NCBI RefSeq assembly: GCF_004768465.1
Contig: NZ_SRMF01000002.1
Coordinates: 101,606-165,605, forward strand
Source of the DNA: Natronospirillum operosum
GTDB lineage: Bacteria; Pseudomonadota; Gammaproteobacteria; Pseudomonadales; Natronospirillaceae
Length of the DNA: 64,000 nucleotides
Reading direction: 5' to 3'
The translations under genes were made by a program, and so were the position numbers. Positions 29,116 to 39,353 of the stretch are shown piece by piece; within the stretch, counting starts at the first letter, position 1, and the number at the start of each line of letters is the position of its first letter. Below the pieces are notes generated by a model. It did not search any database. It was not told the DNA's origin and saw only the letters and a list, made by a program, of their open reading frames with translations.

Positions 29116-29207
29116 GGACAGCACACATTCAGGTGCCTGAGCGCAGCCGCAGTCACTGGCCAGCGCTGGCACCGTCCACAGGACTCGATCCAAAGCCAGG
29201 AGGTTTC

Positions 29208-29984
29208 ATGCAGATGACTTCCCCCCGCCAGGCCCCGCTCGTGCCGAGCCAAAACCGCGTGCCGAGCCAAAACCGACTGCTGACGTCCCTGTCCCGCGAC
29301 GCCAAGGCCCGGATCATACCCAACATGGAAAACATATCGCTCAGCCAGGGCGAGGTCATCTTCCAGGCTGGTGACACTGAGCGTTTTGTCTATTTCCCCA
29401 ACGATTGCCTTCTCTCACTGCTCTATGTTTTGGAGAATGGCAAGTCCACTGAAATAGCTGTCGTTGGCAGTGACGGTTTCGTTGGCTCTGACGCATTACT
29501 GGGAGAAGGCACAAGCTGGAGCCAGGCACTGGTGCAGAATGCCGGCACGGCCTACCGAATTCGCGCTTCGGTGTTGCGCGAGGAGTTTTACCGAAATTCG
29601 GAACTGCAGACGATGGTCCTGCTCTACATTCAGTCAGCGATGATCCAGACTGCGCTGGTGGCTGCTTGCAACCCGCACTACAGCATTGCACAACAACTTT
29701 GCTGCAAGCTGCTGTTCTCTCTCGACCGGCTGGGCGGAGACGAACTGACACTTACCCAGGAGGCGATCGCAAACGCCCTGGGGGTTCGCCGCGAGAGCGT
29801 GACTGACGCTGCCAATCTGCTTCGTGAACAGGGGGCTATCGACTACTGCCGCGGGCACATCAAGGTGCTGGACCGCACCAGGCTTGAAGAACTCAGCTCC
29901 GAGTGCTATTCGGTGGTCACTGCCGAAAGTGACCGTCTCATGCCCTGGCAGGTGTCACCCGCGGCGAACAGCAGCCACGGGTAA
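29208..29984 (+). CDS. Crp/Fnr-family transcriptional regulator
   Basis: The 258-residue cytosolic regulator has a cyclic-nucleotide-binding fold (about 40-150) and a Crp-type winged helix (about 175-235; LTLTQEAIANALGVRRESVTDAANLL). The start at 29208 has a near-perfect AGGAGG. The N-terminus contains a tandem duplication, VPSQNR-VPSQNR. The FNR iron-sulfur cysteine pattern is absent from the N-terminus, so it is not an oxygen sensor of the FNR type; it resembles the large group of unassigned Crp-like proteins with short recognition helices. It is transcribed alone, apparently from a sigma54-type promoter, which is unusual for this family. Confidence 0.88.
   Translation: MQMTSPRQAPLVPSQNRVPSQNRLLTSLSRDAKARIIPNMENISLSQGEVIFQAGDTERFVYFPNDCLLSLLYVLENGKSTEIAVVGSDGFVGSDALLGEGTSWSQALVQNAGTAYRIRASVLREEFYRNSELQTMVLLYIQSAMIQTALVAACNPHYSIAQQLCCKLLFSLDRLGGDELTLTQEAIANALGVRRESVTDAANLLREQGAIDYCRGHIKVLDRTRLEELSSECYSVVTAESDRLMPWQVSPAANSSHG
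29241..29276 (+). repeat. In-frame 18-bp tandem duplication in the Crp-like gene
   Basis: Two adjacent 18-bp units (29241-29258 and 29259-29276) differ at one position and encode VPSQNR twice in the disordered N-terminal segment. This looks like a recent slippage duplication. Confidence 0.9.
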
Positions 29985-30021: not shown

Positions 30022-31836
30022 TCAGTACCCCTCGCTGCTCATGATTCGGATCGACTCGCCGTCTTCCGACGGCTGATAGGCCCAAACCATGATCATGCGA
30101 GGCCCCAGGGTTGGCAAGGCAAACGCATGCGCAGAGCTGTAGTCGCCCTGGTGGCCGACGAAGCTGCCGTTGTCCCAGCCATGATCCGGATGATAACGCC
30201 GGATGATGATGTTCCGGTGGCTCATGCTGCTGTGCTCCGTGTTCTGTCGAGTCACCAGAACCAGAGAGCCGTCAGCGCCCCAGCGTGCATTCAGGCCGGT
30301 ATTGTTGCCATGGTGGTCCCGGCTGATGATTTCCGGCGTCTGCCAGCCCTGCCCCGGCTCATGGCGCCGCGCGCGCAGAGTGGACGAACGGAAGCTGCCG
30401 GCCTGGGTCAGCAGCAGTGTTTCTCCCTCTGGCCCGAAGGTCAGGAGCGCGGAGTGGTCGTGCTCATCAGAACCCGCAACCGTGACCTGATCGGGCTGAT
30501 CCCAGCCCGTGTCGGGGTCACGCAGGGCGGACCACAGCACAGACTTGCCCAGATGCTCATCCCGCTCTTCCCAGACCAGGCCGGCTCTGCCGTCGTCCTC
30601 GAGCACGACCGAGTGCATGTTGAACGTTCCGACGCCACCCGATTCCCAGGTGAACATGCGGCGGGCATCGGACCAGCCATCATCCTCATTGTACTCCAAC
30701 AGCCACACACCATGATCCTCTTCGCCGCGTAGCTTGTGCCAGGCAAAAAGTACCTCACCCTGGTTATTGGTTGTCAGGCGTATCGACTCCAGATCACCCG
30801 CCGAGTGCGGCAGGGGCACTGTATCGGTGGACCAGCCGGTGTCCGGATCAAAGATCAGGTAATACCACTGCCTTTCACCAGCTTCATCGTTCTGCCTGAA
30901 GTGCCCGATAAAGCGGCCATCGCCCAGTGGCTCCGTTAGCATGGCACCATGGCGGATGATCGACTCCTCTCGCGGACCATCCCCCGTATCGCTCCAGCCA
31001 TCATCTGCCGAGTAGTAGCGGTAACGGTAGTTGAATATGATGTCGCGGTCCGCATCCGGGTCCGGATTGTCGCGTGTGATTTCCCAGATCAGCAGCGCAT
31101 TGCCCGCATCATCAACGCTGAATCGGGGTACCGAGTGCCGTTCATCCGACAGTTCGCTGACAACCTCCGGGTCAGACCACCCGAGGACCGGATCATGATG
31201 CCGCAGGTGTATGTCGCTGGTCTCCCGGAACAGCGATTCTGTCCAGGCCATCATGCCGACACCATCGCGGTTCAGATCCACGTTCATTGAAACCGGATAG
31301 TAGGCGGACGCGTCCAGATCGCCCGGTACAAAAGCCGGCGCCAGCAGTTCCGGGTCGGACCAGACGATATCTCGGGTGCGAAACGACCAGCGATAATGCT
31401 CGCCCAGTTCGTCCCCGGATTCCGACCTCAGGTCGCGGTGCAGTACAGCGGTATAATCGGTTCGCAGGTTCAGTGGTTCGTCCAGTGCCAGTTGCAACTC
31501 GCGACCATCACCCTGCAGGCTGATGTCGCCGTAAAGACGATCACCGTTCTCGGCTTCCACCCAGAACACGGTTGCCGCTATGGAGTTTTCATCCAGAGGC
31601 TGAGTGAGCCGGGCTGTGAGTGGCTCACGGGTGCCCAGACTCCATTCGGGGCTGGGGAAGGTCGACTCGACGGCGAAGCCATCCGCTGCGGAGGTGCTGC
31701 TCTCGGTGCTCCCCGTGTCGGCAGTGCTCCCGGCGCTGCCCGAGCCGCTGTTCTGGCTATTGCAGCCCGCGAGCAGCAGTAGTATTGCCAGCGTGGTCAC
31801 CCCGGCCCAGGGTTGCAGTATCCGATTTCCTTTCAT
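30022..31836 (-). CDS. Lipoprotein paralogue 1: Ig-like domain plus GW-repeat propeller-like region
   Basis: This 604-residue exported lipoprotein has signal peptide MKGNRILQPW... with lipobox LLAGC, then a Ser/Gly/Thr linker. An N-terminal domain (about 60-150) resembles bacterial Ig-like (SbsA/Big_5) modules, with TARLTQPLDENSIAATVFWVE. The remaining 450 residues carry eight evenly spaced GWS/GW motifs (WSDPELL, GWSDPEVV, GWSDTGD, GWSTDTV, GWSDARR, GWDQPDQ, GWQTPEI, GWDNGSF), suggesting a beta-propeller. The C-terminus is SSEGY. The start overlaps no gene but lies 2 bases after the stop of paralogue 2. Function unknown. Confidence 0.88.
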   Translation of the reverse strand: MKGNRILQPWAGVTTLAILLLLAGCNSQNSGSGSAGSTADTGSTESSTSAADGFAVESTFPSPEWSLGTREPLTARLTQPLDENSIAATVFWVEAENGDRLYGDISLQGDGRELQLALDEPLNLRTDYTAVLHRDLRSESGDELGEHYRWSFRTRDIVWSDPELLAPAFVPGDLDASAYYPVSMNVDLNRDGVGMMAWTESLFRETSDIHLRHHDPVLGWSDPEVVSELSDERHSVPRFSVDDAGNALLIWEITRDNPDPDADRDIIFNYRYRYYSADDGWSDTGDGPREESIIRHGAMLTEPLGDGRFIGHFRQNDEAGERQWYYLIFDPDTGWSTDTVPLPHSAGDLESIRLTTNNQGEVLFAWHKLRGEEDHGVWLLEYNEDDGWSDARRMFTWESGGVGTFNMHSVVLEDDGRAGLVWEERDEHLGKSVLWSALRDPDTGWDQPDQVTVAGSDEHDHSALLTFGPEGETLLLTQAGSFRSSTLRARRHEPGQGWQTPEIISRDHHGNNTGLNARWGADGSLVLVTRQNTEHSSMSHRNIIIRRYHPDHGWDNGSFVGHQGDYSSAHAFALPTLGPRMIMVWAYQPSEDGESIRIMSSEGY

Positions 31837-31838
31837 GG

Positions 31839-33563
31839 TCAATAACCCTTGCTGCTCAGAAAGTGATAGGACTGATGGTCGGGACCCTCGTAGGCCCACA
31901 TCATCATGATCCGCGGTCCCTGGATGGGCAGAACGAAGGTCAGGAACTGGGGGTTGTCCCTCATGCGACCGAAGTCGCTGCCGTTGGTCCAGCCCTGCTC
32001 CGGGTGGTAGACCCACACGACAATGTCCCGCTCGCCGTCGCTGGCTTCAAGCGTCAGCAGAACCAGTGAGCCATCGTCGTCCCAGCGTGCCTGCATTATA
32101 TTGGTGGGGTAGGAAAGGTTCTGGGTGAGGGTTTCCGGCGCCTGCCAGCCTTGACCCGACTCATATCGCCGCGCGTACAGAGACCCGCGATATGGGGTGT
32201 TTCCGGAGTTCAGTGCCAGTACCTCGCCCTCGGGCGCCACGGTGATCAAGGCTTCGCGCCCGTACTCGCCTGTGACTTGTTCGGCATCGCTCCAGCCCTC
32301 TCCGGGCTCATAAATGGCCGACCACAGCATGGGGCTGGCCAGTTGCTCGTCCTGACCGGCCCAAAGAGCGGCTGCCTTGCCGTCGTCGTTAAGTGCGAGC
32401 GAGCGGATAGTCATGTCGTGGTCTGGCCCTATCTGCCAGGACGTCATGTGGTGCGGGTCGGACCAGCCGGTGTCTGCGTGATACTGCAACATCCACTGGC
32501 CATCGGTAGCCTCGCCAACGCGCTGTTGCCAGGCAAACAGCGCATCGCCCTGACCATTCGCCGTGAAGTCGACGGTACCGATATCAGCAGATTCTCCGGG
32601 GATGGGCACATCATCGGTGGACCAGCCAGTATCCGGGTCGAAGAGGGCATAGATCCACTGGCGTTCGCCGTCTTCGTTGTTGCGCAGGTACTGTCCGATA
32701 AAACGGCCGTCACCCAGTGGCTCGGGTCCGACTGACAGGGATCTTGTATTGCCCTCGCCCGGGCCGTTTCCCAGGTCGTGCCAGCCATCCTCCGCCGAGT
32801 AATAGCGATAATGCGGAATGAACAACCAGGAGGTGTCAGGGTCCGGGTGACTCTCTCGCACCTGCCAGGTCAGCAGGATATTGCCTGCCTCATCTACCGC
32901 GATGTCCGGAATGAGGTGCAATGCGCCGGTATGTTCGGTGATGGGTTCGGGGTCAGACCAGCCGAGAACCGGGTCATGGTGGCGGGTATGGAACACCTGC
33001 CCTTCGGCGGGGAATGTGGCCGTGCCTTCCGCCCACGCTATCAGACCGGCGCCCTGTCGGTTCAGTGCCGCACTGGATCTGACTCGATAATTACTGGACT
33101 CGTCGAGGTCCTCCGGCATATAGGCCGGCGCGAGTTCATCCGGTTCGGACCAGACAATGTCACGCACGAAAGTCCAGCGGTGGTGCTCGCCCAGGCCATG
33201 CCCGGCTTCTGAGGTCAGGTCCCGATGCAGCACGGCTTCATACTGGATGAGCAGTTGCAGGGGCTCGTCCAGCACCAGTTCCAGTTCGCGGCCACCGGCA
33301 TTCAGGCTGATATCGCCATACAGGCGATCGCCGTTCTCGGTTTCCACCCAGAATGCGGTAGCCGAGACCGTGCTGGCATCCAGGGCCTGATTGAACCGGG
33401 CAACCAGATGCTCACTGGGTTCGATAGCGCGTGCGGCTTCGGGCGAGGTCCACTCCAGCAGCAGTTCATCTGGTGGAGTGCTGTCCGAGTCACCGCTGCA
33501 GCCTGCCAGCAACAGGAGGCAAAACAGGCTGAACAGGATTATCTGTTTGGTTTGTGTTTGCAT
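31839..33563 (-). CDS. Lipoprotein paralogue 2: Ig-like domain plus GW-repeat propeller-like region
   Basis: This 574-residue lipoprotein (lipobox LLAGC) aligns from end to end with paralogue 1. The Ig-like module contains ARFNQALDASTVSATAFWVE and NGDRLYGDIS, and the same eight GW motifs follow in the same order and spacing (WSEPDEL, GWSDPEP, GWHDLGN, GWSTDDV, GWSDPHH, GWSDAEQ, GWQAPET, GWTNGSD). It ends SSKGY. The gene is in the middle of the three-gene cluster and its stop is 2 bases from the start of paralogue 1. The cluster is probably one operon starting at paralogue 3. Confidence 0.88.
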   Translation of the reverse strand: MQTQTKQIILFSLFCLLLLAGCSGDSDSTPPDELLLEWTSPEAARAIEPSEHLVARFNQALDASTVSATAFWVETENGDRLYGDISLNAGGRELELVLDEPLQLLIQYEAVLHRDLTSEAGHGLGEHHRWTFVRDIVWSEPDELAPAYMPEDLDESSNYRVRSSAALNRQGAGLIAWAEGTATFPAEGQVFHTRHHDPVLGWSDPEPITEHTGALHLIPDIAVDEAGNILLTWQVRESHPDPDTSWLFIPHYRYYSAEDGWHDLGNGPGEGNTRSLSVGPEPLGDGRFIGQYLRNNEDGERQWIYALFDPDTGWSTDDVPIPGESADIGTVDFTANGQGDALFAWQQRVGEATDGQWMLQYHADTGWSDPHHMTSWQIGPDHDMTIRSLALNDDGKAAALWAGQDEQLASPMLWSAIYEPGEGWSDAEQVTGEYGREALITVAPEGEVLALNSGNTPYRGSLYARRYESGQGWQAPETLTQNLSYPTNIMQARWDDDGSLVLLTLEASDGERDIVVWVYHPEQGWTNGSDFGRMRDNPQFLTFVLPIQGPRIMMMWAYEGPDHQSYHFLSSKGY

Positions 33564-33585
33564 GACATGGTTCCTTGTCTTGAGC

Positions 33586-35256
33586 TCAGTCAAACATCCG
33601 GGTTCGAATCCGCGCCTGCAGGTCGTCGATGATGCCGTACTCCAGCATGGCGGCATGCCCCTGAGCACCGGTGAAGAAATACAGGTCAGGCACCCTGGGG
33701 CTGAGGCCCGGCAGTGCGTAGTTCAGCAGTTCATCTTCAACAGGCAGGCCTTGGCTGTCACTGTGGCGCGCCACCAGCACGGAGTGTGGGTCGTCGTCCT
33801 GCGCACGGGGGCGGTACCGCCACAGTCCAATGGGCTGTCCATCCGCGCCCTGAACCCACTGCGCCAGCACATAGTCGTTGTCACCATGGGGCCAGGGAAT
33901 ACTGTCTCGGTGCACAAGGTCGCCCTGCTGGTCCGTTCTGACACGGTGGCGAATGTTGTTCAGATAAAGATCACGGTAGCCCTCGGGCGACACGAAAAAC
34001 GTGACGGCATCACGGTCAAGCCGGCCGCTGACGCCGGAGCTGGTAGTCACCCAGAAGGGATCTGCCAATGGTTCCTGGCCGTTGAACCATTGTCCCTGGG
34101 GGCGGCGGCCAAGGGCGGAGCCATCATCCACGGACCACACCACCAGCCAGTCATCACCGTCCACAAAGGCGGCAACCAATTGCACGTCTGCCGTGTCTGC
34201 AAGTACACGGGCGGGGTCGCCCTGCAGGCTGTTGTCTTCATCCACCGCCGCCTGATAGACCTGCTTGCCCCGGGAGTCCTCTTCTTCCCATATCAATACC
34301 CGGGTGTCGTCAGCGGTGATCAGAAGTTCATGGGCATCAATGGAATGACCCTGGCCCGTACTGATCTGCGCGGGGTACGCCCAGTGTCCGCCCTGCAGAG
34401 AGGTGACATGGACCTGGTCCTGATAGAGCCAGTGGACAATGGCGGTGCCATCGGGCCGGGCGATCACCCGGGGCTCCAGAGCACGCGACCCCAGCCCAAG
34501 CTGTTCCGGCTCTGCCCAGCCGGTCTGATAGTGGAAGCGGGCCGCCATGACCTGATGACTGCGACCATGGCCTTCATGCCAGACAGCCAGGGCCTGGTAG
34601 TCATCCAGCCAGGTCAGCGACAGCGCATCTGCGCGCATGACCCAGGGCGTGCTGAGTACCTGTGGGTGCCGCCAGCCATCACCCGGACGATAATGGGAGG
34701 CCATCAGGGCCGATTGCTCGTCGTCACGCTGGAACCAGCCGATCAGGGCATCACCCTGAGGGCCGACACTGGTGATGAGGTGGGAGGGGGTAGAGGGCAT
34801 GTCGGACATGTAATAGGGGCCGACCAGGGTTTCCCAGTCATGCCATTGCCCCGAGCGTACCGTGAAACGGCCCTGCTCCGGGCTTTGCAGCGCATTGCCA
34901 TCGGCATCGCGAAGGGCGTCAGACCACGACAATCGGTACTCGGCACCCAGGTCCAGAGCACCCGCAGGATAGAAATGAGCCTGGTTCCGCCCGGGCAGCC
35001 ATTCCAGACTGCCCTCGACCCGATCACCGTGCTCGTCGAGCAATGCAAAGGCGTCTTCCAGCGTGTCCGGGTCCACAGTCTGATTGAACCGCGTGACCAT
35101 CACCATGCTGGGGATGACGTCCGTTTCTTCAGCAGCGGGAATCATCTCCGTGATACCCAGTGGTCCGCCTGAAGACCCCGATCCGCTGCCGTCCGAACAG
35201 GCCGCCAGCACCAGACTCGAGCCCAGCGCAACCAGCACCAACCATTGCCGTTTCAT
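33586..35256 (-). CDS. Lipoprotein paralogue 3: Ig-like domain plus divergent GW-repeat region
   Basis: This 556-residue lipoprotein starts MKRQWLVLVALGSSLVLAACSDG (lipidated Cys20). The Ig-like module is recognisable (VTRFNQTVDPDTLEDAFALLDE and GDRVEGSLEW), but the repeat region has drifted: QWHDWET, GWRHPQV, GWAEPEQ, HWAYPAQ are visible, and later repeats are weaker. It is 22 bases upstream of paralogue 2 and is the first gene of the cluster. It is the most diverged of the three, so the duplication is not recent. No enzymatic motif is visible. Confidence 0.88.
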   Translation of the reverse strand: MKRQWLVLVALGSSLVLAACSDGSGSGSSGGPLGITEMIPAAEETDVIPSMVMVTRFNQTVDPDTLEDAFALLDEHGDRVEGSLEWLPGRNQAHFYPAGALDLGAEYRLSWSDALRDADGNALQSPEQGRFTVRSGQWHDWETLVGPYYMSDMPSTPSHLITSVGPQGDALIGWFQRDDEQSALMASHYRPGDGWRHPQVLSTPWVMRADALSLTWLDDYQALAVWHEGHGRSHQVMAARFHYQTGWAEPEQLGLGSRALEPRVIARPDGTAIVHWLYQDQVHVTSLQGGHWAYPAQISTGQGHSIDAHELLITADDTRVLIWEEEDSRGKQVYQAAVDEDNSLQGDPARVLADTADVQLVAAFVDGDDWLVVWSVDDGSALGRRPQGQWFNGQEPLADPFWVTTSSGVSGRLDRDAVTFFVSPEGYRDLYLNNIRHRVRTDQQGDLVHRDSIPWPHGDNDYVLAQWVQGADGQPIGLWRYRPRAQDDDPHSVLVARHSDSQGLPVEDELLNYALPGLSPRVPDLYFFTGAQGHAAMLEYGIIDDLQARIRTRMFD

Positions 35257-35501: not shown

Positions 35502-35945
35502 TCAGTCCTGACGCAGTTCTGTCCAGTGTCGATCGGCCTGCTCGATATAGCCGGGTCGGTCGGCCTGCCAGCGTGTCTGTATGCGCTGGTTGTAGTTCAG
35601 ATAGAGTCGACCATCGACGATATCGTAGGCTTCCGGGTCGATGCGGGCAGTCCGGCCGTCAGCCATGGCGTAGGCGCAAAAGCCACCGTACTGCGGCGCA
35701 TAGGCCTCAGGGTCGGCCACAAACCGGTCCCGATGCTCGGCATTGATAAAGTGCCAGTCGGCACCATTCCATTCGGTACTGTACTCACTGCTGCCCTCCC
35801 GGGCTTCGCCGAGCTCAAAATAGGCCACCGGGTCATACCCGCGAATGGCCACATTGCTGAACAGACCGGTATAGACAGGACCGGCCGCATAGCTGAATGA
35901 AGAGAGGCCCAGCAGGGCCAGAGCCAGTTTGAATCGATTGAACAT
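35502..35945 (-). CDS. Exported YHS-domain protein
   Basis: This 147-residue protein has a signal peptide (MFNRFKLALALLGLSSFSYAA) and one YHS domain (about 30-100) with IRGYDPVAYFELG, WHFINAEHRDRFVADPEAYAPQYGGFCAYAMA. YHS domains are found with heavy-metal enzymes and are thought to bind metal, but this single-domain exported type is uncharacterised. It lies 245 bases upstream of the lipoprotein cluster on the same strand, so co-transcription is possible but not required. Confidence 0.88.
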   Translation of the reverse strand: MFNRFKLALALLGLSSFSYAAGPVYTGLFSNVAIRGYDPVAYFELGEAREGSSEYSTEWNGADWHFINAEHRDRFVADPEAYAPQYGGFCAYAMADGRTARIDPEAYDIVDGRLYLNYNQRIQTRWQADRPGYIEQADRHWTELRQD

Positions 35946-38585: not shown

Positions 38586-39353
38586 ATGAGTATGAATATG
38601 CGACACAACACGGCGTGCAAGACCTGCTCTCTGAGCCCACTCTGTCTGCCGGTTTCCCTGTCATTTTCCGACATGGACCGTCTGGACGGCATCATTGAAA
38701 GAGGCCGTCCCATCCCAAAGGGTCAGTACCTGTTTCGTCAGGGCGACCCGATGCATTCGGTGTTTGCGGTCCGCACCGGCACACTCAAAAGCTTTGCGCT
38801 GACCCGGGCCGGAGAAGAACAGATCACCGGGTTTCATCTGCCCAGTGAAATTCTTGGCCTGTCCAGCTTCGACATCCAGCATCACCAGGTATCGGCCCGG
38901 GCCCTGGAAACCACCAATGTCTGCGAGATTCCGCTGGATCAATTGGATCGGCTGAGCAGCCAGTTACCCGAGCTGCGTCGCCAGATGATGCGGATCATGA
39001 GCCGGGAGATTCGCGATGATCAGCAGATGATGCTGTTGCTGAGCAAGAAAACCGCTGAAGAGCGGCTGGCCTCATTCCTGCTCAGTCTGGCCCAGCGCTT
39101 CAAGCGCCGTGGTTTCTCGGAACACAGCTTTCGTCTGACCATGGCCAGGGCGGATATCGCCAACTTCCTGGGCCTGGCAGTGGAAACAGTCAGCCGGGTG
39201 TTCACCCGCCTGCAAAAGAACGGCATTATCGAGAATACCGGCAGTGCCCGCGAAATCAGCATTCTGGACCAGCGAGCCCTGTGTGAAATGGCGTCACTCA
39301 GCGAAGCCGAGCGGCTCGAACTGGGGCTGATCGCGACATCACGGGTGCACTGA
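38586..39353 (+). CDS. Fnr/Anr anaerobic regulator
   Basis: This oxygen-sensing regulator is 255 aa. The N-terminal cluster ligands C11-x2-C14-x5-C20 plus C113 give the FNR four-cysteine set for a [4Fe-4S] cluster. The effector domain and a C-terminal helix-turn-helix with VETVSRV (the E..SR recognition residues of FNR) follow. Three closely spaced ATGs (38586, 38592, 38598) are possible starts; the first is kept. The upstream perfect Anr box indicates self-control. Functional equivalents are called fnr in Escherichia coli and anr in Pseudomonas. Confidence 0.94.

Follow-up and report, generated by a model that had tools for sequence, protein, structure and literature searches.

The locus described here raises the question of what three consecutive lipoprotein genes have in common, how they came to lie side by side, and what their products do. 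The window, a stretch of 64,000 nucleotides from Natronospirillum operosum (contig NZ_SRMF01000002.1, positions 101,606 to 165,605), was expected from the initial annotation to encode three such proteins between positions 30022 and 35256. The open reading frames (604, 574 and 556 aa, here A, B and C) were indeed present, all on the minus strand, with a transcription order of C, B, A. They are the only members of their family in this genome. In window coordinates, the features are:

35502-35945, minus strand: gene of the YHS domain-containing (seleno)protein family (163.8 bits, cut-off 70), located upstream of C at a distance of 245 bp
33586-35256, minus strand: gene for protein C, 556 aa, first in the run; lipobox cysteine at aa 20, Big_5 domain at aa 32-132, divergent putative eight-blade propeller region at about aa 136-556
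33564-33585, minus strand: C-B gap of 22 bp, a spacing also found between two genes of a related genome (locus L038)
31839-33563, minus strand: gene for protein B, 574 aa; lipobox cysteine at aa 22, Big_5 domain at aa 36-132, eight W-repeats starting at aa 138
31837-31838, minus strand: B-A gap of 2 bp
30022-31836, minus strand: gene for protein A, 604 aa; lipobox cysteine at aa 25, Big_5 domain at aa 55-154, eight W-repeats starting at aa 159; evident tandem duplicate of B
29133-29984 and 38586-39353, plus strand: two Crp/Fnr-type regulators flanking the region

The 2-bp gap is consistent with A and B sharing one transcript; a scan of the locus for promoters and terminators gave a signal no higher than chance. 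All three proteins carry the lipobox cysteine (LLAGC in A and B, VLAAC in C) and an SbsA/Big_5-like domain, both of which had been anticipated, with PF13205 scores of 29.1, 24.2 and 36.0 bits for A, B and C against a Pfam gathering cut-off of 23.6. The residue following the lipidated cysteine is Asn in one and Ser in two of them (CN, CS, CS), and because there is no Asp at +2, an outer-membrane location is predicted; we infer that A, B and C are outer-membrane lipoproteins.

The Big_5 domain is followed by eight copies of a repeat of about 54 aa. Eight GW motifs had been reported for A and for B, in one-to-one correspondence. The eight repeats and their pairing stood, while the motif count did not: GW occurs seven times in A (at 219, 280, 334, 387, 444, 497 and 553) and seven times in B (at 201, 260, 313, 366, 423, 472 and 524), since the remaining repeat, the first in each protein, opens with VW (Trp at A159 and B138). 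Protein C has three GW motifs, at 173, 194 and 246. Blade identities between A and B along the diagonal were 52, 49, 58, 45, 39, 45, 40 and 44%, mostly the maximum of their row, and the mean identity between blades inside either protein was 28-29%; on this comparison the blades of A and B match one to one. A single-repeat HMM built solely from proteins of other species, when run against the three sequences, scored 76.8 bits for A, 60.5 for B and 44.5 for C (E 1.6e-25, 2e-20 and 2e-15 in this three-sequence search), which places the repeats above chance.

The statement that no known family function is evident was correct for curated models, since neither Pfam nor NCBIfam has a model covering the blades, but it overlooked that A, B and C belong, as judged by profile comparison, to one widespread family without a name, defined by lipobox, Big_5 domain and eight W-repeats. 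In hhalign, the A/B profile matched that of the family over its full length (99.9%, E 1.3e-35), as did the C profile (99.5%, E 1.4e-22). With B as query, matches were found in 18 of 390 genomes of the order. Searching GTDB contigs with the B sequence alone gave no match; the survey of those contigs used an alignment of five relatives, a broader alignment being too diverse, and recovered relatives encoded in 262 stretches. Going by record title, the 80 of these that were listed included Gammaproteobacteria (Marinobacter, Saccharospirillum, Hahella, Pleionea), Myxococcota, Nitrospirota, Acidobacteriota, Spirochaetes and Thermoplasmata. The putatively archaeal relatives (contigs titled Thermoplasmata or Thermoplasmatota; L078, L083, L122 and L125) were all on contigs of metagenome-assembled genomes (MAGs). 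Many relatives share the plan of lipobox, Big_5 domain and eight repeats, and others have several Ig-like, fn3 or HYDIN-type domains, so that the architecture is not private to this locus. On five further contigs (L062, L103, L107, L108 and L115) two family members lay near each other, showing that neighbouring copies recur at other loci. A literature search found no publication on these lipoproteins.

A link to the YHS neighbour, which the initial annotation had thought worth a survey, was not supported: its counterpart in the related genome (L038:10206-10451) matches the window protein at both ends with an internal segment missing, and such a deletion counts against a functional connection with A, B and C. 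The rest of the neighbourhood consists of housekeeping or regulatory genes (gamma-glutamyltranspeptidase, AraC, CBS, the two Crp/Fnr-type regulators, a phosphoribosyltransferase and a PP-loop ATPase), and no carbohydrate genes were found near the run. Comparison across the relatives' loci gave no convincing recurrent partner; the largest cluster of neighbours comprised six loci including the window, and was not taken as a link because it was built by single linkage.

Structure prediction agreed with the proposal of a beta-propeller carried on a lipoprotein. The AlphaFold model of A (pLDDT 79, pTM 0.75) shows the Big_5 domain followed by eight sets of four strands, which supports an eight-bladed beta-propeller; the same fold is predicted less firmly for C, with a pLDDT of 71.5 overall and below 50 at aa 393-459. 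In the PDB, Foldseek ranked the lectin CV39L first for A (E 8.6e-11) and placed PLL and PHL in the top 20 rows, and VIA-align superimposed A on PLL lectins with Z of about 20 over some 312 residues at 4.5 A. Sialidases and lyases were also matched, and C gave a similar set (CylK, WD40, PLL). Propeller matches are promiscuous, and those of A and C thus indicate fold rather than function; sequence searches of the PDB found no propeller homologue of A, B or C.

The reading that we tentatively prefer is an outer-membrane-anchored binding propeller, most likely one that binds glycans. The cysteine lipid anchor, predicted to lie in the outer membrane, would be followed by a low-complexity linker, a single Big_5 Ig-like spacer and an eight-bladed propeller whose blades are the four-stranded W-repeats of about 54 aa. 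Ligands would most likely be held in the grooves between blades, as in the seven-bladed PLL and PHL lectins, in which case A, B and C would be anchored proteins that bind glycans or polysaccharides, for adhesion or capture, and not enzymes. Glycan binding is favoured because the fold resembles that of W-motif lectins with inter-blade sites, exemplified by PHL, where sugars are bound between blades by Trp stacking (PMC5584973). Counting against it are the lack of carbohydrate genes or a recurrent partner around the run and the failure of profile comparison to detect homology to DUF346/PLL-type propellers.

Protein binding is the main rival. The propellers could instead face the periplasm as scaffolds that bind envelope proteins and serve outer-membrane assembly or structure, in the manner of the lipoprotein BamB or of WD40 propellers, a possibility of some substance although on the unlikely side. 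Lipoproteins face the periplasm by default, which suits such a role, and the top VIA-align rows for A were WD40 propellers from protein complexes (IFT-A, FBXW8 and TBLR1; Z 22-23, about 330 residues, 3.5-3.7 A). As these protein-protein propellers reach Z values equal to or higher than the lectins, the fold alone does not indicate sugar. However, a patchy distribution (the 18 of 390 genomes matched by B) and the lack of a recurrent neighbour are hard to reconcile with a core role in assembly, and Pfam gave no match to BamB-type PQQ repeats in any of the three proteins.

Activity on polysaccharides, as a propeller of the sialidase, polysaccharide-lyase or GH type, would accord with the Foldseek matches to sialidases, PL24 lyases and L-rhamnose-alpha-1,4-D-glucuronate lyase, yet is improbable. 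A motif scan of A, B and C found neither the FRIP motif nor the canonical Asp box (S-x-D-x-G-x-x-W), and in the family alignment no acidic or basic residue and no Tyr is invariant. Besides Met1 and the lipidated cysteine, the invariant columns of a 24-row family alignment are Trp and Gly only, which, with the missing motifs, argues against an enzyme and for a binding or structural role.

The history of the run is clear in one part. A tandem triplication had been proposed, and this held for A and B, which are 48-49% identical and clearly true tandem duplicates: the tree joined A to the A/B-type gene of the related genome (99/89) and placed B as their sister (100/100). C, about 18% identical to B, grouped with its own orthologue (100/100) and joined A and B at only 74/53, with all five sequences on very long branches; hhalign aligned only 208 columns between the A/B and C profiles. 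The copies might have separate ligands or partners, as the initial annotation proposed. The triplet itself was not conserved: in the only other genome of the genus the surrounding genes are retained, but the family is represented by two genes, one C and one of A/B type. The latter (L038:6449-8260) lies behind C at the 22-bp spacing seen for B and has B-like upstream DNA. Its informative sites are 59% B up to A residue 161 (mixed to B-like) and 10% B in the propeller (A-like), a split reached by 0 of 2000 shuffles. It looks like a B/A mosaic, as could result from an exchange between the tandem copies by recombination or gene conversion; alternatively, the Big_5 part may have evolved at unequal rates. 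Between orthologues of these two genomes dN/dS was about 0.17-0.26 (0.15/0.67 for A, 0.19/0.73 for C), indicating that the genes are maintained under purifying selection overall.

A broader and rather doubtful proposition is that blade amplification has carried a large family of lipid-anchored eight-bladed lectins through bacteria and archaea, and that whole-gene duplication and domain exchange at this locus (one copy's Big_5 domain fused to another's propeller) serve to change binding specificity. That the proteins are variable surface antigens or phage receptors, with the tandem copies as a recombination reservoir, would suit the mosaic gene and its B-like upstream DNA, but is very unlikely given the purifying dN/dS values from these two genomes.

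The family counts hundreds of relatives, yet Pfam has no model for its blades and sequence searches find no homologue of known structure; it is a candidate for a new class of anchored binding proteins. Within one architecture the family spans near-identical to fully diverged blades, making it useful for studies of propeller origin and specialisation.

Among known systems, the W-motif lectins PLL, PHL, CV39L and BP39L share four-stranded W-motif blades with the predicted propellers of A, B and C, and gave the best Foldseek match and high VIA-align scores. To our knowledge, they have neither lipobox nor Big_5 domain. PLL and PHL are seven-bladed (PMC5584973), in contrast to the eight repeats of A and B. 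No Pfam match to DUF346 (PF03984) was obtained for A, B or C up to E 10, and hhalign found no homology to DUF346/PLL, its values of 4.7% and 0.9% covering signal-peptide columns only, with a DUF346 profile of three rows that leaves room for a distant relation. The nearest curated model was NCBIfam NF053835 (PDIAV motif-containing lipoprotein), against which relatives scored 43-69 bits, below the cut-off of 90; A, B and C also fell short of it (B, 13.7 bits; A and C gave no listed match).

The closest likeness is to lipoproteins of Saccharospirillum, Marinobacter, Hahella and many MAGs (for example L057, L059 and L049), which resemble A, B and C in whole architecture, length, lipobox, Big_5 domain and eight repeats. 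Several of these have near-identical blades, with mean identities of up to 83% compared with only 28-29% in A and B, and A/B and C also differ from them in their long branches in the tree. The highest value was seen in Marinobacter sp. BGYM27 (L024/L051), where it may be a sign of recent blade amplification. A cycle of blade amplification followed by divergence is known for propellers in general (Pereira and Lupas 2022, PMC9218822), and relatives with more than 60% blade identity match the account given there of highly repetitive propellers arising by amplification of a single blade. In the parts of that account drawn on here the A/B/C family is not named, and beside such repetitive forms A and B are differentiated propellers.
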